DNA from: a virus
IMG/VR virus record: IMGVR_UViG_3300033153_002211
Span: 1-20,188 of that record
Reading direction: 5' to 3' (one strand)
DNA: 20,188 nt
Position numbers and translations under genes: made by a program. Below are positions 6,983 to 18,340 of the stretch, piece after piece. The notes beneath the pieces are model-generated. The model searched no databases. It was given only the letters and a program-made list of their open reading frames with translations, and was not told the DNA's origin. Each line of letters begins with the position of its first letter. Within the stretch, counting starts at the first letter, position 1.

Positions 6983-9493
6983 ATGCCACAAGACTATAAT
7001 CCACAAGCTCTCTCGGAGTTCAAACGAGCCAATTTAGACTCGAAGATCTTCGATAAACAAGCAGGTACGTCAGCTAAACTTGCCAGTATATTTGGTCCAA
7101 GTGAGGCTGATATTGCCCGTGATGCAGATATTGCTAATTTACGTCAATTGGCTCAACAAGAGCATGCTGCTACAGTACAACGTGAAGGTGAAGCGGTACT
7201 TTCTGATGAAGCAGTAGAAGGCCCAGTAGGCTTTGCTGCGAACCAAGCCTTAAATCTTACAAGTAAATTTGCTGATGTAGTAATTGGTCAAACCTCTCGT
7301 TTAGGTATCAACCTTGCAGATGCATTTGATGATGCAACTATTCCTACTGAAGATAAGCAACGTTATCAAACTATTCAAGATAAACGCGAAGCTGGTAATA
7401 TACTCAATAAGCAATTAAGTGAAATGGCTTCTAAACCTGCTGGTACGTATACTCCTGCACAGATTGATGAAGTACGTGCACAGTATGACTCTACCCAGTT
7501 AACTGAAGAAGAGGAATTATTCTCGGATCCAAATAAACAACGTACCTCGAAAGGTGAAGCTTCTTTCAAGAAATTAGAGAAAGCTAAAATTCGTGATCAA
7601 ATGCGTGAGATTATGACTCAGCCCTTTGCTCAGTTAGAAAAGTGGGTTAATAAAGGCAATAAAGATAAAGCCGTTGCCCGGGTCCGCGATGAAGTGGAAC
7701 GTGCTGCTATTGAATTTGATGACGATAACTATGGTGATGCTGTAGGTACTGTTTTTGGCGCCGTAAGTAACTTAGTTACTGATGATATAGACGCTGCAGG
7801 TGAGTTATTAATTGATTCCGCAGCCCATATGATTGCTTTAGCCAAGAATGCTCCAGTTGCCATTGCAACAATTGGCTCAGATATGTTGTCCTCATCTACG
7901 AAAGAGTTTGAGGAAGAACACAAACGTCCAGCAGAACCTAAAGAAATGGCCTATATGGCATTGCTAGTTTATGGTTCAGTTGGTTTAGATGCTATTGGTG
8001 CTAAAGTGTCCTTAGGAGCCTCAACAGGGTTCCATTCTATAGTAAATACCGCTAAGAAGCTTGATCTAAAGGTCCCTAAGAGCTTAGTAGATACAGCCAC
8101 CCAATTAGGTAAAGTAGTCCCTACAGCTCCCCTAAATGTAGCTAGGGCTGCAACAGTGGAAGGTGTGACTGAAGCAAGCCAGGAGGTACTAGAACAACAA
8201 GCTGTAACGCAAGATATCTCTAAAACTGATGTCAAACAAGCTTTAGTTGGTGGTGTTATTGGTGCTGCAATTGGTGGTGGTATGCGTGCTCCTTCTGAAG
8301 CTGTACAGGCTGCCGATTCTATCCGGAAGAATGCTAATAAAGCATCTACTGCTATTATAGAGAAGGCCAATAAAGCAGGTGTTGGTAAGACGGATGATAT
8401 TATTGCTGAATCTCTGGAGTCTGGAGATATTGAAACCGGTATAAACGAAATTAAGAATACTGATTTTAGCCTCATTCCTAAGGAACAACAGCATAAGTTA
8501 TTAGATGATTTTGAAGAATTGATTTCTCTGTATGAGAAGAATCTCGATGTAGATGGTCCAACCATATTAAAATATGAACAGGAATTAAACCATCTCTGGG
8601 CTATTGTTACTGATTCTAAAGCAGAATCTTCTGTAAATGAAGCTGTTGAGGAGTTACAAAAAGGCCCAAGTGAATCTGCCAACGAGACCTTAGCTTCACA
8701 TGTACGTAATAGTGCTACTATATCACCAGCTGATGTTAAGCGCAGCCTGGGTAGTAACTCATCATTCAAAGAGACGGCTACCCCAGAACAAATTAAAGTA
8801 GTTGAAGATCTCAATGACTTCAATGAAGCTGTAAGTACTGCTCGTAACATTGATAATGTTACAGATAATGTGCTTAAGGGGTCCAAAGATAGTAAATTTA
8901 TTGGTATCGAAACCCATATGAGCAATGCTAGACGCGCTATAAACAAGGGTGATACCAAGGGAGTGGCCACTGTACTCGCTAAATTAGACAATTTTCTACA
9001 AGGACAGAATAAGAAGTTGCAGAATAAAGGTAATACTCCTAAGTTCATACAACAAATACAGAATGAAGTTAACCTCATTGAGGCTACGATCCAACAGATT
9101 GAAACATTGTCAGGCGGAGTGAAGGCTGAGGCAAAACCAAAGGCGAAGCCGGAGGTTGCAGCCGATAAGCCGAAAGCAGCTGTAAAGAAGAGTGTACAAG
9201 TAAAAGACTTATTTGAATATAAAGATGGTAAACCTGTAGGGCGTGCAGCTAATATAGCTACTATATACGCACAGTACCGTAAAGGTAAGTCTAAGGAAGA
9301 AGTAGCTAAAGGGCGTGTAGAGTTTAATAAGATATTGGCTGAAATTAATGATATCCAGTATACTACACTCAGTAAGATTGATATCACCCGGGAAGCAGGG
9401 GATAAAGAAATTAAATTTAACGCAGCACAAGAATACGAAACTCTTACTAAACGTATGAGTGGGTTAGAAACCATATGGAAAGAATGTAAATAA
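6983..9493 (+). CDS. Large internal (ejection-type) virion protein, 836 aa
   Basis: A long helical, charged protein with apolar patches at about 272-300 (LLIDSAAHMIALAKNAPVA), 322-345 (MAYMALLVYGSVGLDAIGA) and 420-433 (ALVGGVIGAAIGGG). The last follows a segment TVEGVTEASQEVLEQQAV that I know from giant phage internal proteins, where EGxTExxQE precedes a glycine-rich, membrane-prone helix. A Lys/Ala/Pro linker (AKPKAKPEVAADKPKAAVKK) at about 715-738 separates a C-terminal domain. This composition suits a protein that threads through the tail and inserts into the host envelope. No enzyme motif is evident. The start has no strong RBS and lies 3 bases after the upstream stop, so it probably depends on coupling. 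The long open frame on the opposite strand is a shadow of this gene. Confidence 0.75.
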   Translation: MPQDYNPQALSEFKRANLDSKIFDKQAGTSAKLASIFGPSEADIARDADIANLRQLAQQEHAATVQREGEAVLSDEAVEGPVGFAANQALNLTSKFADVVIGQTSRLGINLADAFDDATIPTEDKQRYQTIQDKREAGNILNKQLSEMASKPAGTYTPAQIDEVRAQYDSTQLTEEEELFSDPNKQRTSKGEASFKKLEKAKIRDQMREIMTQPFAQLEKWVNKGNKDKAVARVRDEVERAAIEFDDDNYGDAVGTVFGAVSNLVTDDIDAAGELLIDSAAHMIALAKNAPVAIATIGSDMLSSSTKEFEEEHKRPAEPKEMAYMALLVYGSVGLDAIGAKVSLGASTGFHSIVNTAKKLDLKVPKSLVDTATQLGKVVPTAPLNVARAATVEGVTEASQEVLEQQAVTQDISKTDVKQALVGGVIGAAIGGGMRAPSEAVQAADSIRKNANKASTAIIEKANKAGVGKTDDIIAESLESGDIETGINEIKNTDFSLIPKEQQHKLLDDFEELISLYEKNLDVDGPTILKYEQELNHLWAIVTDSKAESSVNEAVEELQKGPSESANETLASHVRNSATISPADVKRSLGSNSSFKETATPEQIKVVEDLNDFNEAVSTARNIDNVTDNVLKGSKDSKFIGIETHMSNARRAINKGDTKGVATVLAKLDNFLQGQNKKLQNKGNTPKFIQQIQNEVNLIEATIQQIETLSGGVKAEAKPKAKPEVAADKPKAAVKKSVQVKDLFEYKDGKPVGRAANIATIYAQYRKGKSKEEVAKGRVEFNKILAEINDIQYTTLSKIDITREAGDKEIKFNAAQEYETLTKRMSGLETIWKECK

Positions 9494-9509
9494 TTAAGAG
9501 GATACACCC

Positions 9510-10814
9510 ATGAGTAATTATATTGGTGATTTCATAGAAGATTTCACAACACTAAGTTTTAAATTTTTAACTGTAAACATAGCAAATAATACTGCTAGTG
9601 TCCCTACTACTTTAGCTGGAACACCAGTAATAAGTGTATATAAAGAGGGTGATCTTGTTCAATCGGTAGCTGGTATAACTTTAACTGTTGATTTTGATGG
9701 AGTAACTGGGTTAAACCATGTGCTTATTGATTTATCTGCAGATGCATTTTATGTTGCTAATGCTAATTATGATGTAGTAATTACAACTGGTACTGTAGCT
9801 GGCGATTCTACGATAGGACGAGTTGTTGCAACCTTTAGTATTGAAAATCGTTCATTAGAAAAGGTAGTATCTATTGTTTCTAATATCGCCACTGGTGCGG
9901 CTGCTCCATCCGTACCCCCTGAATCTGCTTTAATAACTACAGGAACTGAAGTTAATACCTATGCATCTGCTATAAATCTAGATGGTGGTTATCATGAAGT
10001 TTCTGATGTTGCAGGAGCAATTGATTTCTACTATGAATTTGATATTGGTTCTAATCGATTGGCAGCAAGTGTTGCTATGAATGGTCGATTAGAAGGTAAA
10101 GATGATGTGATCGGAGTTTATGCCTGGAATTGGGTAACTACAGCCTGGAACCAAATAGGTTCTATGATTGGTATTTCTGCGGGTGGCGATGATGGTGTGG
10201 CTGTATTTACTGTTCAAACTGATCATACTGGTATTGGTGCTGATTTAGGTAAAGTGCGTATCCGTGGGTTGGCATCTGGTTTAACAGCCGCTACCTTCTT
10301 TATTGATCGAGCAGTTGTGCGTCATGCTACTAATCCTACAAGTCAACAAACTTTAGGCACAATAGATGATGTCTCAGCAACTCAATATGTTTTTGATACT
10401 GATTTAGTTCAAGCTACTGGTATATGGAATGATGCACAGATAACTTTCACAAGTGGTGCATTGGAGGGTGAAACTAAAATTATTGATACTTTCGTTGCCG
10501 GCGTTATTACTTTGGATGAGCCTTTAACTGGTGTTCCTGCAAATGGAGATACATTTGTTATTCGCCATGCACATACTCATACAATTACTCAAATTAGTCA
10601 GTCTGTTAGATCGGAAATGGATACCAATTCCACTAAGTTAATTGCTCTCCTTGCTAGTTTAGGTATTGTAGATGCTATTGTAGATGCTATTAAAGCTAAG
10701 ACAGATAACTTAACTTTCACTAAAGCTTTAGAATTGGATGCTAATATACAATCTATTAATGGGTCTACTGTTGTAGGTGATGGACAAGCTACCGGCTGGG
10801 AAGGGCAACCTTAA
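9510..10814 (+). CDS. Modular phage fibre/appendage protein, 434 aa
   Basis: Four modules can be read. Residues 1-115 carry the beta-rich segment GTPVISVYKEG, GITLTVDFDGVTGLNHV, YDVVITTGTVAGDS and ATFSIENR, an N-terminal domain that recurs in phage fibre and baseplate-attached proteins. Residues 145-275 look like a lectin- or galactose-binding-type jelly roll (YYEFDIGSNRLAASVAMNG, ending FFIDRAVVRHA). Residues 285-352 (IDDVSATQYVFDTDL to VPANGDTFVI) and the C terminus (VDAIKAKTDNLTFTKALELD, then INGSTVVGDGQATGW) are widely shared fibre-associated modules. The likely role is host-surface binding or linking fibre parts. AAGAGGA lies 7 bases before ATG. The stop overlaps the next ATG. Its place between internal proteins and the vRNAP differs from N4, whose appendage genes lie elsewhere. 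Confidence 0.8.
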   Translation: MSNYIGDFIEDFTTLSFKFLTVNIANNTASVPTTLAGTPVISVYKEGDLVQSVAGITLTVDFDGVTGLNHVLIDLSADAFYVANANYDVVITTGTVAGDSTIGRVVATFSIENRSLEKVVSIVSNIATGAAAPSVPPESALITTGTEVNTYASAINLDGGYHEVSDVAGAIDFYYEFDIGSNRLAASVAMNGRLEGKDDVIGVYAWNWVTTAWNQIGSMIGISAGGDDGVAVFTVQTDHTGIGADLGKVRIRGLASGLTAATFFIDRAVVRHATNPTSQQTLGTIDDVSATQYVFDTDLVQATGIWNDAQITFTSGALEGETKIIDTFVAGVITLDEPLTGVPANGDTFVIRHAHTHTITQISQSVRSEMDTNSTKLIALLASLGIVDAIVDAIKAKTDNLTFTKALELDANIQSINGSTVVGDGQATGWEGQP

Positions 10815-10963
10815 TGGCTATTGGCTATAATTGGAAAGAAGGATCCTGGGTTACTGCTAGTTGGGCTACTACTGCCTGGCGGGCAATATCCACATTTGCA
10901 GCTGGTTTGTTAACTAGAACTCATATAATTGCTGCTGAAGACCGAACACAAGGAGTCAAATAA
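10814..10963 (+). CDS. 49-aa tryptophan-periodic peptide in fibre cassette
   Basis: A small gene read directly from the sequence: start ATG 10814, stop TAA 10961-10963. It overlaps both neighbours by one base as TAATG, which is the best support that it is translated. The N-terminal half has tryptophans at residues 7, 12, 17 and 22 (GYNWKEGSWVTASWATTAW), an exact five-residue period. The rest is an Ala-rich hydrophobic stretch and a polar tail. I do not recognise a named family, but short Trp-repeat proteins of this style do occur beside phage fibre genes. A role in fibre assembly or attachment is inferred from the neighbours only. Confidence 0.75.
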   Translation: MAIGYNWKEGSWVTASWATTAWRAISTFAAGLLTRTHIIAAEDRTQGVK

Positions 10964-11313
10964 TGAGTATTTATACTAACGATCCAGTCAAAGATCCAAG
11001 TGATGTTCTGGATTATAAAACTGACTTTGCTAATACCTCTAATGGAGGCGATGTAGCAGATCATTTGCAATTAGGAGAGGTAATAACCTCTATAAATGTA
11101 GTTGCAAGTGATGGAATTAATGTACATGATGGCGTAACAGTGTATAATGGTGTTACAAGACCAGCACCTGCTAATACAGATAATAATACAGCAATACTTT
11201 TTTGGTTATCTGGTGGGAATCACCCAACTAATTACTTAGTTACTGTGACAATTACAACTAGTGCAGATCGCACAATTGAACGGTCAAGGTTAATTCAAGT
11301 ACGACAAAATTAA
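10963..11313 (+). CDS. Fibre-tail adaptor-like, Ig-like beta protein, 116 aa
   Basis: The start motif DPVKDPSDVLDYKTDFAN, the later GGDVADHLQLGEVITSINV, a central variable part, FWLSGGNHPTNYLVTVTITT and the end DRTIERSRLIQVRQN follow the layout of small phage proteins annotated as fibre-tail adaptors. These have a DPxxxLDYxxD start, a LxxGExIxS strand, WLSGG, then a T-x-x-GR-like strand before the final V-x-V-x strand. The fold is probably a single immunoglobulin-like beta sandwich. AAGGAG lies 7 bases before the ATG, and the ATG also overlaps the upstream stop. With the 434- and 49-residue proteins it forms a three-gene appendage cassette. The role of joining a fibre to the tail is inferred from family resemblance. 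Confidence 0.72.
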   Translation: MSIYTNDPVKDPSDVLDYKTDFANTSNGGDVADHLQLGEVITSINVVASDGINVHDGVTVYNGVTRPAPANTDNNTAILFWLSGGNHPTNYLVTVTITTSADRTIERSRLIQVRQN

Positions 11314-11323
11314 GGAAAGACAT

Positions 11324-14300
11324 ATGGGCAGTAAAACATGCATCTACGAGAATGCTTCAATATTAGGAAAGGTAGATGGTGCTGCCTTGGTCAAGTCTTT
11401 TGAGTTAGCCTTGGATAATGGGTTAACTGAGTCACAAGCATTTGTACAAGCTATGGCCGAGATGGCCCAACAAACTGAGTCCAGTCTGGAACAGTTACGC
11501 TCTGAACTTAATGTAAACTATGAAGTTAAGATCAAGGTACCTAAAGCTTCATTCTTATCAGAAGCACATTCATTTATCGATTCAGAAACCTCTGCAGGTA
11601 GTTTTGCGAAAGACCTATTAGCAGGTGGTATTGGTGTTAAGAAGCCTGGGTTCATTAAGAACACTTTGGCTACATTCTTACAAGCCAAAAGAAAATCCAA
11701 GAAAACCAGTATATTAGCCTCTTCATTTAACTTCTTCAGCCGTTATGCTGATGGTTACCGTGCGCCTGGATTACCTAAATTAAATGAAAAACAAGAAGCC
11801 GGCTTAAATCAGATTGCTGAATTTGCTAAAGAATTCCACACACGTGCTACTGAATTGAACTTCTTTGTGCAGGCCAAGAACTTATATCAAAACAACTTCG
11901 ATTCATCTGATGTTAAAGGTAAAGAGTCATTTGGTGATCCATCGGGTTACTTTACACAAGAAGATGCAGAAGGTAATAAGTTCCTTAGTGAGAACCTTAC
12001 CGGTGCTATGGTAGTCGCTGCTGTTAATTGGATTGGTACACAAGGTTCTAATACTTTATTTAATGATGAAGCCGCTATTGCAAGCATCCTTGGATTACAC
12101 CCCGGGGAAGAACTTCCAGCTGGAGCATTTGATCTCCAGTTAGTGGGGGATGTACGTACTGTACTTGCTGAGCAATTAGGCGCTGCTGTATTTACTCTTA
12201 CCGGTTTAGAAGGTAAGAAAGATATCGATGGTGACATGGTTGACCGTATGCAGCTTGCTTTAGGTGAGTCGGTGATTGGTATTCTTGTTGATATGGGCCA
12301 TATAGAACAAACAGCTATATCCTCTGAAGTGATGGGTAGTTTAACTGATGGTTCTGTTCAAGTAGAAACCGGTGCTGCTACCAATTTTGTTAAGATCAGT
12401 AGTGAATTAAATGCGAAGGGTTACCCGGAACCTTCCCAGAAGTCTGCATCTCTTATTGATACAGTAAGATATAGTGATAAAGTAATCACAACACTGTTTG
12501 ATATTGAGTCATACCAGAAGGACGTGTCCTTCGAGCCTATAATTACTGTAGCTACTAAAGTAAAGAACACTACTCAGACTGTAGCCAAGAAACAACAAAG
12601 TGCACTTAAGAAAATGCAAGATGTTGAGCAGGGTATGCTTACTAATGAATTACAACTATTCACCGCCTTAGGTGAAGAAACAGTTATGGAATTACTTGGT
12701 ATAGTTGAAGATATTAAAGCTCTACCTATTACTAAGCGTAAGAAACAATTAGGTAAGAACTTAGCTATTGAACGTGAAGTTAAGAATGTTGCTAAATTTG
12801 TAGAGAGCATGCCAGCTCCGGATGCAAGTTTTTATTATGTCCACGAAGTGTGGAAGAATTTACGTATGGGTCTGTCCAGTTCATTAATGAATCCCCAGGC
12901 CAGTAAAGTACACCGGTTTCTGACTGGGGCTAAATCTTGGAAAACAACTGTTAAGCCAGGTGATACTAACACTCTTAATTATTTTAAAGTAGCAGTGGCC
13001 CAAGCATTTGGTAAAGATATTGACAAGCAAACTATAGACGAATCAGTTGCTCAATTTTATGAGTTATATGCTAATGTAGCTATACAGAAAGCTTTGAACC
13101 ATATTGAAAAACTACAGTCTGGTAAAGAATTAACTGTGACTGGTAAAGAAGCCATTACAGATGCAATGCAGTTGTTCAATGAAGAAGGTAAAGCAACTAT
13201 TAAACCAGATGCACGTATTCATGCCATGGCTGGTTTAGTTGCCTTGAATGCATATGATAAAGCTGTTCAAACGGCTCCCTTTGGTCAAGAGATCGGAGAA
13301 GCATTTGATAATACATTGGCTCTCGAGACTGACGGTATCACCAACGGTGTTGCAATTGGTTTACTTCAATCTATGTTAGAAGAAAATTCAGCAGAGATGT
13401 TGGAGTCCATGGGTTTATATACAGATAATAAGACTACTGATTTTGGTGCTTGGATCGATGGTGTTACTAATATTGATTCATATCAGCGCTTATCAATAAC
13501 CTGGGCGGAGATCTTTAATAATGATACTGAGCTTGATGAAAAAGATAAGAAGTTTATTAGATCGGTTACTGGTCAGTTAACAGAAATTGTTGATGGTAGA
13601 CATACTGCTACTTCAACTGGCCGTAAGTTAGCTAAATTACCTCTTATGACAAGTAATTACGGTGCTACTATTAAGAAGATTGTCGATCTATTTGGTGATG
13701 ACGCCGTCGAGCGTTTATATGATCGTATGTATGATGCAGAGAGCCAATCAGATTTGAATATTATTTTCCAAGAATTAAGCACGCATAATGGTGCATCCAT
13801 TGCAGCTCCGGATATTAAAGAACTCAATGAGTATACTTTACCAGCCCCTGTAATTAAGAAATTTAAGAAGGGTATCGCCAGTACTATGGGTGTTGCTTTA
13901 GAAATGGCTATTAGTCAACAGTTTAAGGGCTTTAGTGAGTATCGTAATGCATTGAATGCCTCATTCAAGATTATGTTCACAGTATTTAAAACTAAATATG
14001 ATGAAGCAGTTACTGCTGCAGAGAAAGAAAAAGGCACCTCATTAACTGAAGTAGAGAAAGAAGCTTTAATTGAGGACCTCCGTCAGTACATGCCTGCTAT
14101 TAAAACGGCAATCTCGAGTAAGGAATCTGATAAATTAGTTATTATGAAGACCACTAAGTCACGTAACTACGATAATAATAATCATTCCGTACAAGTTAAG
14201 TTCTCACGTCCATTAGAAAATACTGAGACCCTTAAAGGTAAGAAGTCGAGCTCTATGAAAGGTACTATTGCTAAGCGCGATTATACTGATGGTGGAGTTG

Positions 14301-17300
14301 CGGGTGGTGTGTTATCAACACAAGCGATTGATGCAAGTATTATGGTTCACATTATGGAGAACTTTGAGTCTCTAAATGTACATGATGCTACAATTTCTGG
14401 TTTAGATACAGTTGTTGATGCAACTCAGGAATACTCTAAAGAGTTCTTAGAGTTAAATGAACGCTACAGTGTATTAGAAGCAACAGTTGAAGCACTTCAT
14501 GATGTACTTAAGGCTTCTGCCGGTACAGTCAACTTAGATGCTGTATTAGAAGATACTACCTTAGCAACGTTCTTAACAGAGTTAGAAGCAACAGCTAAAA
14601 AGGTTAAGACTGCACGTGATGAGTACTTCCCTACGGTTACAGCAAGCTCTCAAGCTGCATTAGATGGGGCGGGTTGGGTAATTGCGAAAGAACAAAGTAA
14701 AGAAGAGATTATTGAAGATCTTAAAGACTATGAGTTATCTCATGTAGATCAAGCTATTAAAGATATGCTACGCCCATTAGGCTCACAAAGTGCTGCATTT
14801 GATTTCGATTCATTCCAGGCTGCTTATGAAGTTAACCTAACAGCTGATAATACTGTAAGTACTTTTGAGAATTTACAATCAAGCTTTGAAGGTGATGTTA
14901 AAGATTCAGATGAACATGTAGAACATCTACGTGGTGTTATAAGTGGAATTGTTAATAAGGTAATTAGTGAAGCGGATGCTGCACCGGTAGCGTTGGGAAT
15001 CAACGTGAGGGGTACTGAGGTTTTAGGTCAGATTTCGGATGGAGTTATTCAGATTCAAGCTGGACGCTCTAAATCTGTAGAGAACACTTCTCAACTGTCT
15101 ACACAAGAAGTATTTGTACACGAACTAACTCATCATATTACTGATTTCGCATTACAAACAGATTTCTTCTATCGTACTCAGATTGAGAAACTTCGTGCAC
15201 AAGTTAAGAAACATATGACTGTTGAAGATTTTATGCCAGATCATGTTGCAATATCTGTAACAGAGGACTATAAAGCTGCTAAGAAGCGCTATGATTACAT
15301 ATTCTCTGGTAAAGATTCATTACAAGAGTTTGTAGCATTTGCTATGACTAATGCTCAACTACGTAAGAAGTTAGCCGCGATTCCGGCTGCGCCTACACGC
15401 GACTTAACTTCTGGTTCTTTATGGGACCGATTGAAAGAGTTATGGAATTCTATTTTAGACTTCGTACAAGGTAAGATATATGGTACCAGCGATGTTATGG
15501 CTGATGAAGCTTTAGATTTACTGGTTGGTAAGTTAGTGGACACTAACAGTCGTTACCATGAATCAATTCGATCCAAATTAGGTATTGTTGGTCAGATGGA
15601 TATTAAAACCATTGCTGCTCTAAATAAATTTATTTGGGCTCCTATGAAGAATTACCATCTCCAGCAACGGGCCAAGAAGAAACTTACCCCGGTAGGCAGA
15701 GTAACCAAGACATTAACAGGTGTTCCTTATGTGCTTAATAGTAAAGTGGATAAGTCAAACATCTTACACGCACTTAAGCAGGTCTTAAACCTACTTCATA
15801 TTACTGAGCGCGGTTTCTTAATTAAGTTGGCTCGAGAGATACAAGGTATAACTGCAGATAACTCTAAGTGGCACCAATTACTCCGTCTTAGTAAGATGTA
15901 CGTCGATCAAGAGCGTAGACACGTAGCTGAGCTAATAAGTAGAGAAGTATTGAATTCATTTAAAGCAGGTAAGCTTACTGACGCAGAGGCCGACTCTATC
16001 AACCAAGCGTTGTTAATGACAGATCTAGCTGTACTTCAAGGTAAGTACGACTTAAGTCAGCTGACTAAGCTATTAAGAAATGAAACATTCCGTAACTCTG
16101 AAATGACTAAGATTCAAAAGCAATTGGATGCCTTCAATGTTAACGGCAAAGGTAATGGTAATTACTATATTCGCCAAGCTTTAAACCTGGGTGAGATTAT
16201 GGCAACCGGGATATCTTCAGAAGATAATCCTATGTTGAATGCGTTTAATATTGTAGAGATGCGTAACCTAACAAAAACAACAACTGGTGACCTTGCATTG
16301 GCAGAGGAGCTTGTAGACCAATTGGCTTCACTTAGTGCATTACAACACACAGATCAAGAAATCAATGTGCGGGCTGCTGGTGTCGTTTCACGTGAGTATA
16401 AGGGTGACCCAAAGGCAAACGGGATCCAGTTCACTTTAGAAACTGCTGAGAACTTTAAGAAAGAGTCTTTAGAAAAACTCTTCCATGGTAATAAGTCACA
16501 AACTATAAAAGGGTATACAACTGAAATAACGAATCCTAATATTGAGATGCGTATTGGTGAAGATAATGCAGCAACTATTGCAGAAATGAAGTCTCTTGGG
16601 TTTAGAAAAGAGACCGGCCTTGGAAAGGACGACAAAGACGGAAACAGAAAGCCGATGGCTCTATATGTCACGAAGTCAGCTGCTCAGAATACTTACTTGA
16701 AAGCAACAGTATCTTTGACTAACCAAATTGCTAAAGGCACAGACATTATGGAAGCCCTGAGGGTAACTGGTAGCCGGACATCTAATGTAGAACGTATTGC
16801 TGCTATGCATACACTGGCCAAAGGTAAAGCTTCTTCTGTAGAAGAACAGTTTAATTCTCCTAAACGTAAAACCAAGAAAGTTAATAATAACATTTTGGTT
16901 CCAGTTGTAGATGAAGCCGGTAATATTACTTCTTACCGCTATATGATGACTGAAGCTACTAAGAGCAGTATCTTAGAAAAGAGCAACAAATTTGACATTA
17001 TCCTGGGCCGCATGCAAGCGAGTATTCATGACAAGGTGAAATCAGCTGAAGTAAATAAAGAAGTTATCAATTTGGCTCATAAAGAATTTAAAGATGCTAA
17101 AAGCCTAAGAGGTTTCGTTAAGATTGGGCCTAAAGTTGCTGATCCCCGTTACCGTGAAATCTATTCTATGATGCCTAAAGATATGAAGCGAGAAATGGAA
17201 GCTGTATGGGGTGATGATACGATCCAGGTTAAAGAAGAACTTATTGATTTAATATTTGGGTACCGTAAGTTATCAATTGCTGATATCACATTACCTCTTA

Positions 17301-18340
17301 CACAAGTTAAAATATTTGATGGTATTGATAAAGTATTACCTGGCGCTAAGCAAGGTGTACGTGCTGTTGAACGTGGTATACAAGAATTTGTTAGTGTGGC
17401 TAAAGACAACATAGTAATTAAGTCCGGTATCGTATTATGGGATAACGTAGCTAGTAATAATGTATTACTTATGGTGAAAGGTGTGCATCCAAAGCACATT
17501 GCTAAGGATTCTGCTCTTGCTTATAAAGCTCTTGAAAAGTATCAAGAAGAAATCAAGAAGAGAGCTGCTGCACAACACAAGTTGGATATATCTAAGGGAT
17601 TATCTGCGATTGCACGTAAGAATCTTACGAAGCAGATTGAAAGTTATACTGATAGTATACAAGCTAACCCAGTTCGTGGATTAGTAGAGGAAGGAGTGTT
17701 CCAATCAATCGTTGAAGATATTGAGATCAACGCTGATGATTATAGTTACCGTGGTAAGTTTGGTAATTACATACAAGGTATCACTGGTAAGATTACCGAT
17801 AATGAAGGTATAACTTCTAAAGCAACTATGGGCGCTACTGAGGTTTATAAGCAAGCTTATATGACCAAAGATACTCTTATATATCAACAGCTCTTAAAAT
17901 TCACTCAGAAGAGTGATTTTGTAGCACGATTTGTACTACATCAGCATCATATGCGTAATATTGATCGTAAGCATGCTAAGAAAGCATTAACTAAAGAACA
18001 GTTAATAGGGGAAAAACAGAAAGCGTTAATGGATGTAATTGAAACATTCGTTAACTATGATGTACCGACAAGCCCTGCCTTACAATATCTAAATGATATT
18101 GGTGTCTTAATGTTTACTAAGTTCTTATTCCGTATTCAAAAAGTAATTCTACGGACATTTAAAGAGAACCCTGCTAATACAATGGCCTTATATGCTCTTG
18201 AGAATGCAGTTGGTGACTTGGCAAGTATTGATGATTCATTCTTACCATGGAGTAACTTAATGAGTAAATTCAATATGCCTATATCAGGTGTCTGGGATTC
18301 AGCTACTCAAATATCTGCTGCAGAACTCTGGTTACAATAA
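11324..18340 (+). CDS. N4-type virion RNA polymerase (vRNAP) with zinc-metalloprotease-like module
   Basis: 2338 residues, the N4 gp50 counterpart: a T7-superfamily single-subunit RNA polymerase packaged in the head and injected to transcribe early genes. Motifs in order: VWKNLRMG (R514) followed by SLMNPQASKVHRF, in the place of the T/DxxGR motif; motif A, ETDGITNG with D670; motif B, RKLAKLPLMTSNYG, a perfect Rx3Kx7YG with R767, K771, Y779; motif C, LNVHDATISG with H1020-D1021. Their spacing (156, 101, 250 residues) is close to N4 mini-vRNAP as I recall it (R424, D559, K670, D951). Downstream, VFVHELTHH (H1266, E1267, H1270) and LQEFVAFAMTN (E1335) read as a metalloprotease zinc site. About 1000 further helical residues follow and may serve encapsidation, as in N4. 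It is shorter than N4's roughly 3500 residues, mostly at the N terminus. AAGGA lies 7 bases before ATG. Confidence 0.93.
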   Translation: MGSKTCIYENASILGKVDGAALVKSFELALDNGLTESQAFVQAMAEMAQQTESSLEQLRSELNVNYEVKIKVPKASFLSEAHSFIDSETSAGSFAKDLLAGGIGVKKPGFIKNTLATFLQAKRKSKKTSILASSFNFFSRYADGYRAPGLPKLNEKQEAGLNQIAEFAKEFHTRATELNFFVQAKNLYQNNFDSSDVKGKESFGDPSGYFTQEDAEGNKFLSENLTGAMVVAAVNWIGTQGSNTLFNDEAAIASILGLHPGEELPAGAFDLQLVGDVRTVLAEQLGAAVFTLTGLEGKKDIDGDMVDRMQLALGESVIGILVDMGHIEQTAISSEVMGSLTDGSVQVETGAATNFVKISSELNAKGYPEPSQKSASLIDTVRYSDKVITTLFDIESYQKDVSFEPIITVATKVKNTTQTVAKKQQSALKKMQDVEQGMLTNELQLFTALGEETVMELLGIVEDIKALPITKRKKQLGKNLAIEREVKNVAKFVESMPAPDASFYYVHEVWKNLRMGLSSSLMNPQASKVHRFLTGAKSWKTTVKPGDTNTLNYFKVAVAQAFGKDIDKQTIDESVAQFYELYANVAIQKALNHIEKLQSGKELTVTGKEAITDAMQLFNEEGKATIKPDARIHAMAGLVALNAYDKAVQTAPFGQEIGEAFDNTLALETDGITNGVAIGLLQSMLEENSAEMLESMGLYTDNKTTDFGAWIDGVTNIDSYQRLSITWAEIFNNDTELDEKDKKFIRSVTGQLTEIVDGRHTATSTGRKLAKLPLMTSNYGATIKKIVDLFGDDAVERLYDRMYDAESQSDLNIIFQELSTHNGASIAAPDIKELNEYTLPAPVIKKFKKGIASTMGVALEMAISQQFKGFSEYRNALNASFKIMFTVFKTKYDEAVTAAEKEKGTSLTEVEKEALIEDLRQYMPAIKTAISSKESDKLVIMKTTKSRNYDNNNHSVQVKFSRPLENTETLKGKKSSSMKGTIAKRDYTDGGVAGGVLSTQAIDASIMVHIMENFESLNVHDATISGLDTVVDATQEYSKEFLELNERYSVLEATVEALHDVLKASAGTVNLDAVLEDTTLATFLTELEATAKKVKTARDEYFPTVTASSQAALDGAGWVIAKEQSKEEIIEDLKDYELSHVDQAIKDMLRPLGSQSAAFDFDSFQAAYEVNLTADNTVSTFENLQSSFEGDVKDSDEHVEHLRGVISGIVNKVISEADAAPVALGINVRGTEVLGQISDGVIQIQAGRSKSVENTSQLSTQEVFVHELTHHITDFALQTDFFYRTQIEKLRAQVKKHMTVEDFMPDHVAISVTEDYKAAKKRYDYIFSGKDSLQEFVAFAMTNAQLRKKLAAIPAAPTRDLTSGSLWDRLKELWNSILDFVQGKIYGTSDVMADEALDLLVGKLVDTNSRYHESIRSKLGIVGQMDIKTIAALNKFIWAPMKNYHLQQRAKKKLTPVGRVTKTLTGVPYVLNSKVDKSNILHALKQVLNLLHITERGFLIKLAREIQGITADNSKWHQLLRLSKMYVDQERRHVAELISREVLNSFKAGKLTDAEADSINQALLMTDLAVLQGKYDLSQLTKLLRNETFRNSEMTKIQKQLDAFNVNGKGNGNYYIRQALNLGEIMATGISSEDNPMLNAFNIVEMRNLTKTTTGDLALAEELVDQLASLSALQHTDQEINVRAAGVVSREYKGDPKANGIQFTLETAENFKKESLEKLFHGNKSQTIKGYTTEITNPNIEMRIGEDNAATIAEMKSLGFRKETGLGKDDKDGNRKPMALYVTKSAAQNTYLKATVSLTNQIAKGTDIMEALRVTGSRTSNVERIAAMHTLAKGKASSVEEQFNSPKRKTKKVNNNILVPVVDEAGNITSYRYMMTEATKSSILEKSNKFDIILGRMQASIHDKVKSAEVNKEVINLAHKEFKDAKSLRGFVKIGPKVADPRYREIYSMMPKDMKREMEAVWGDDTIQVKEELIDLIFGYRKLSIADITLPLTQVKIFDGIDKVLPGAKQGVRAVERGIQEFVSVAKDNIVIKSGIVLWDNVASNNVLLMVKGVHPKHIAKDSALAYKALEKYQEEIKKRAAAQHKLDISKGLSAIARKNLTKQIESYTDSIQANPVRGLVEEGVFQSIVEDIEINADDYSYRGKFGNYIQGITGKITDNEGITSKATMGATEVYKQAYMTKDTLIYQQLLKFTQKSDFVARFVLHQHHMRNIDRKHAKKALTKEQLIGEKQKALMDVIETFVNYDVPTSPALQYLNDIGVLMFTKFLFRIQKVILRTFKENPANTMALYALENAVGDLASIDDSFLPWSNLMSKFNMPISGVWDSATQISAAELWLQ
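15110..15331 (+). other. HExxH metalloprotease-like site within the vRNAP gene
   Basis: This marks the coding segment for the HELTH motif (codons from 15119) and the candidate third ligand, Glu in LQEFVAF (GAG at 15326). The EFVAxAMTN context resembles the third-ligand segment of metallopeptidase domains in large phage multi-domain proteins. Proteolytic activity is inferred from motif and context only. Confidence 0.65.

Follow-up and report, generated by a model that had tools for sequence, protein, structure and literature searches.

The window, meaning the whole stretch of DNA that was analysed, is a 20,188-base virus record from an N4-like podovirus. Its gene content is N4-like: a major head protein (phrog_1357) and structural genes are followed by an open reading frame of 2338 codons, and a module transcribed in the opposite direction encodes a RusA-like resolvase and a partial RNA ligase. 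The following features make up the virion RNA polymerase (vRNAP) locus.

6983–9493, + strand: N-terminal domain (NTD) of the vRNAP as a gene of its own, 836 aa; phrog_2206 positions 31–472, E=3.8e-20
9510–10814, + strand: 434-aa protein without assigned function, encoded between the two vRNAP genes; in contigs L007 and L008 its ends are conserved and its middle varies
10963–11313, + strand: 116-aa fibre-tail adaptor of the Gp77 family, also lying between the vRNAP genes; PF23148, E=9.1e-13
11324–18340, + strand: vRNAP gene, 2338 aa, covering the RNAP and C-terminal part but lacking the usual NTD; phrog_2206, E=0, and tblastn matches to phage records
13331–13333, + strand: RNAP motif A, D670
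13622–13660, + strand: RNAP motif B, R767 to Y779 (Y779 read directly)
14384–14386, + strand: RNAP motif C, D1021
15602–18337, + strand: C-terminal helical region, counterpart of most of N4 C2; phmmer match to N4 vRNAP (11gp/11fw), query 1270–2288

Judged from its sequence, the open reading frame at 11324–18340 encodes a Schitoviridae (N4-like) vRNAP. The product is a giant protein with the single-subunit RNAP motifs A, B and C that mark this group. The motif residues named in the initial annotation (D670, R767, K771, Y779 and D1021) lie exactly at the positions given there, and D670, R767, K771 and D1021 are invariant in an alignment of seven vRNAPs. The protein is a distant member of its family: tblastn matched 468 phage records, all below 60% identity, the best being Vibrio phage JSF3 at 28%.

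An NTD, RNAP and C-terminal domain (CTD) in one chain are typical of N4, are not strictly required for the family, and are not found in the window, where the 2338-residue protein holds the RNAP-CTD part. The 836-residue protein matches residues 179–784 of a single-chain vRNAP (L015, E=1e-40); the 2338-residue protein begins at about residue 888 of that chain, and the break falls in the NTD-RNAP linker region. A profile of the NTD from the N4-type architecture, built with the window left out, also finds the 836-residue protein (E=9.4e-15). Against phage isolate records this protein had no match at E<=0.001. The same split arrangement is present in contigs L007 and L008, with the same two genes in between, one of them the Gp77-like fibre-tail adaptor. 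In L037, a short vRNAP lies behind other genes and the contig ends before any NTD gene. Two further candidates (L138 and L155) were rejected as split vRNAPs, since their pieces overlap out of frame and are probably sequence frameshifts. In L026, around position 9806, the vRNAP appears as 1092 and 2164 residues with an ATGA overlap, either a real split or one frameshift. A 512-residue open frame on the minus strand opposite the NTD gene (7969–9507 of the window) is probably a shadow ORF. Text searches of the literature turned up no description of a split vRNAP. According to a review that cites unpublished work, injection requires the NTD and encapsidation the CTD (PMC4496689); the naturally split polymerase suggests that the NTD, which genome injection reportedly requires, does not have to be in one chain with the RNAP-CTD part. 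A separable NTD also helps to pull apart ejection, encapsidation and transcription experimentally.

Behind the polymerase core, vRNAPs carry two tandem homologous zincin slots, S1 upstream and S2 downstream. The window protein has the following features in this region.

14888–15601, + strand: zincin-like domain occupying slot S2 (residues about 1189–1426), with slot S1 absent; S2 profile 266–275 bits, AF2 model with zincin topology
15119–15133, + strand: HELTH, residues 1266–1270, two putative zinc ligands and putative general base
15326–15328, + strand: E1335 in LQEFVAF, putative third zinc ligand

The HELTH motif lies where it was first noted, 245 residues past D1021, and the proposal of E1335 as its third ligand gains support from conservation. 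Across 35 aligned vRNAP domains with an intact S2, the columns of H1266, E1267, H1270, E1335 and F1336 are the sole invariant ones. In a larger set of domains chosen by HExxH alone, the E1335 column holds glutamate in 46 of 46 S2-intact and 116 of 116 S1-intact domains. Comparison of vRNAPs, which the initial annotation had put forward as a check, thus finds HExxH conserved together with the E1335 column in S2-intact domains, and a conserved HExxH with a downstream glutamate ligand is what characterizes a zincin-like MPTase. A meaningless HExxH arising by chance in a helical region is conceivable in a protein of such length, as the motif appears in 4.7% of composition shuffles of the 2338-residue protein. 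However, only 0.02% of shuffles contain HExxH followed by xxEF(V/I/L/A)A at zincin spacing, and the motif is invariant across homologues that are mostly 20–38% identical to the window domain. The shuffle frequencies and the conservation in 35 domains rule out this reading, whose probability we consider negligible.

The AF2 model of the domain (mean pLDDT 80.3, about 90 in the active-site helices) contains a helix (model residues 18–36), three strands (45–49, 56–60 and 63–67), the HExxH helix (82–101) and a helix (154–164) that includes E1335 as model residue 157. This order, an N-terminal helix, three strands, the HExxH helix and the Glu helix, is that of the zincin core and agrees with its description in PMC5512222. 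A Foldseek search of the PDB placed anthrax lethal factor first (E=0.019, prob 0.69), then a putative metallopeptidase and more zincins; several zincins ranked near the top, and no match reached E<=0.001. Structure prediction and fold search, also proposed at the outset, therefore gave the element order of a zincin together with weak PDB matches. Against viral models, the best matches were other vRNAPs. The window domain had no Pfam family match at E<=0.1, zincin models included, and did not reach the curated cut-off of the named peptidase families (PF18818 MPTase-PolyVal, SprT-like, M91 and M85); SprT-like, M91 and M85 were matched only weakly, among relatives. A phmmer search of the PDB with the 450-residue region alone gave no match. 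Conservation and AF2 topology support the original zinc-metallopeptidase-like reading, and residues about 1189–1426 very probably form a zincin-like zinc-peptidase domain, a grading that concerns the identity of the domain and not its role.

To place this domain, we used a set of 162 vRNAPs drawn from three viral-contig scans, six phage records and the window. The relatives on viral contigs were found with an alignment query; a single-protein query of the contigs found none. S1 is intact and S2 dead in 114 of these proteins, S2 is intact with no S1 in 44 (the window included), both are intact in two, and two are exceptions. None of the 162 is devoid of an HExxH zincin, in a set that was gathered by similarity to vRNAPs, so that an unseen clade without one is possible. 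A zincin-like domain is a regular component of the C-terminal region of Schitoviridae vRNAPs. The profiles of the two slots match each other (hhalign 98.8%, E=1.2e-16 without the dual proteins; E=0.07 for the reversed control), and the match is still strong with the misplaced domains of L009, L033 and L038 left out of the S1 seeds. This match indicates that the slots are tandem homologues.

Both motifs occur in the proteins of phages PG11 and phi 1, in which they lie 237 and 235 residues apart, respectively. Phi 1 and VCO139 (L064 and L027), about 94–97% identical nearby, differ by the presence or absence of an in-frame 654-nt block that contains a complete S1 zincin. A recent copy of phi 1's own S2 was rejected as the source of this extra S1, which shows little similarity to S2 beyond the motif and is closest to other S1 domains. 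The two exceptions are L072, with an HExxH zincin N-terminal to the polymerase core, and L192, with HESIH in S1 and a further HExxH domain. Extra HExxH domains N-terminal to the core were observed in L038, L034, L072 and L012; L038 has two of them besides an intact S2. Separately, the S1 part of the A3 profile matched residues 413–570 of PDB 9sfn chain G, a 1337-residue 'internal virion protein' (E=3.8e-19). This sequence match suggests that the domain may also occur in internal virion proteins outside vRNAP.

In the dead S2 domains, the site is lost as a whole: neither His nor the third-ligand Glu is left in 114 of 116. The commonest replacement (44 of 116) pairs Glu at the H1270 position with Arg at the E1335 position; the two could form a salt bridge in place of the zinc. 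The dead S2 of L077 is predicted to be without the three strands. A tree built from the C-terminal helical region of vRNAPs requires about five changes of the slot labels; the pattern is consistent, over these few events and not over 162 independent ones.

A zincin-like peptidase domain in N4 vRNAP was reported by Iyer et al. in 2017 (region 2130–2448; PMC5512222), and again in 2021 for N4 and Pectobacterium phage CB1 (PMC8472413). The N4 cryo-EM preprint of Bellis et al. (2025) places the conserved HExxH in C1, residues 2124–2375 (PMC12633501). The initial annotation's statement that no protease had been described in N4 vRNAP was thus wrong in view of these three papers, and the novelty it gave to the polymerase-peptidase fusion falls with it: the fusion has been known since 2017 and is found throughout the family. 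Two points look unreported, namely the tandem zincin slots with the complete site kept in one of them, and the separate NTD gene.

With respect to mechanism, one zinc would most likely be held by H1266, H1270 and E1335, and the most likely reaction is peptide-bond hydrolysis with E1267 as the general base. The domain would most likely act after the protein leaves the capsid, possibly on a protein encountered in the course of ejection or inside the host. Cleavage of another protein is the role we lean towards, at somewhat below even odds. Alternatively, the target may be the vRNAP itself: a limited cut in the disordered RNAP-CTD linker would free the polymerase from its inhibitory C-terminal domain. 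Self-processing into an active product of about mini-vRNAP size was the idea of the initial annotation and was also raised by Iyer et al. (PMC5512222). The domain sits directly behind the RNAP and adjoins this flexible linker, seen in N4 as an invisible 23-residue connection, and the N4 CTD inhibits transcription (PMC12633501), an inhibition that a linker cut after ejection would lift. Iyer et al. also inferred self-cleavage for P1 DdrB (PMC5512222). However, the N4 polymerase reportedly enters the virion without processing (PMC5512222), and recombinant purified full-length gp50 gave no evidence of degradation (PMC12633501). Given this reported packaging in uncut form, a cut in some other protein of the virion or the host is no less likely than one in the linker. 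Moreover, the window clade keeps its full active site even though its NTD is already a separate gene. Detachment of the NTD would need no peptidase here, and the N-terminal half of the proposed mini-vRNAP release is moot in the window. We consider self-cleavage after ejection less likely than cleavage of another protein.

A role without any proteolysis appears less probable still. The fold could be metal-binding or structural, or could carry out other HExxH chemistry, as HExxH also occurs in non-peptidase enzymes such as radical-SAM-associated ones (Bellis et al., PMC12633501), and the survival of the paralogous N4-type S2 without its ligands shows that the scaffold can be valuable without zinc. 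Against this stand the general-base position E1267, whose invariance in intact domains equals that of the ligands, and the joint loss of the ligands, of which neither kind persists in nearly all dead S2 copies. Of the 162 diverged proteins, nearly all have the complete HExxH and Glu in one slot or the other, which speaks for a catalytic activity that is required. We consider a non-peptidase zincin fold improbable.

We give a probability of roughly 0.6 to the reading that selection preserves a working zincin in the vRNAPs of this family, a minimum of one and mostly just one, placed in either of the two homologous tandem slots. Where the working zincin occupies S1, S2 would be a pseudo-zincin whose ligands have been exchanged together, frequently with Glu for His and Arg for Glu. 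The window clade has its NTD as a gene of its own and its peptidase intact, so the peptidase would serve a step other than NTD release; since the NTD is made from a separate gene, its release is not what the peptidase is kept for in this clade. With the comparative slot pattern, the role of the C-terminal region of vRNAPs, a long-standing question, can be put to the test.

In its order of elements, the window domain resembles the PF18818-type MPTase of phage and plasmid polyvalent proteins, with an HEXXH helix and a downstream Glu helix behind a three-stranded sheet, but differs from it in that no Pfam zincin model matches the window domain even at the permissive threshold used above. The likeness to the catalytic domain of anthrax lethal factor, the weak best PDB match and also the match that Iyer et al. 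obtained for N4 with HHpred (PMC5512222), is one of fold only; no sequence-level relation is shown, and the fold match is not evidence of a toxin. Among phages, Vibrio phages JSF3 (Pacinivirus) and VCO139 share the S2-only architecture, with HELVH and LHEFVA, but have a single chain that includes the NTD (3022 residues in JSF3), at 28% identity to the window protein. The N4 vRNAP (gp50) likewise has an HExxH zincin-like domain, C1, behind a single-subunit RNAP. It differs in being one chain of 3500 residues, whereas the window NTD is a separate gene, and in holding its motif, HELVH at 2228, in S1, whereas the window HELTH is in S2. Because the N4 motif is that of S1, direct alignment sets the dead N4 S2 opposite the window motif, at about residue 2450, where the ligands are gone (QSVFQMVTAA and LLPTFLG). 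Homologues that align through this region without the three residues, a finding that the initial annotation would have held against its motif, therefore do exist in the N4-type S2, yet an intact paralogous domain lies just upstream in each. The dead S2 copies thus explain how a simple alignment with N4 would lead to a mistaken rejection of the motif in the window.
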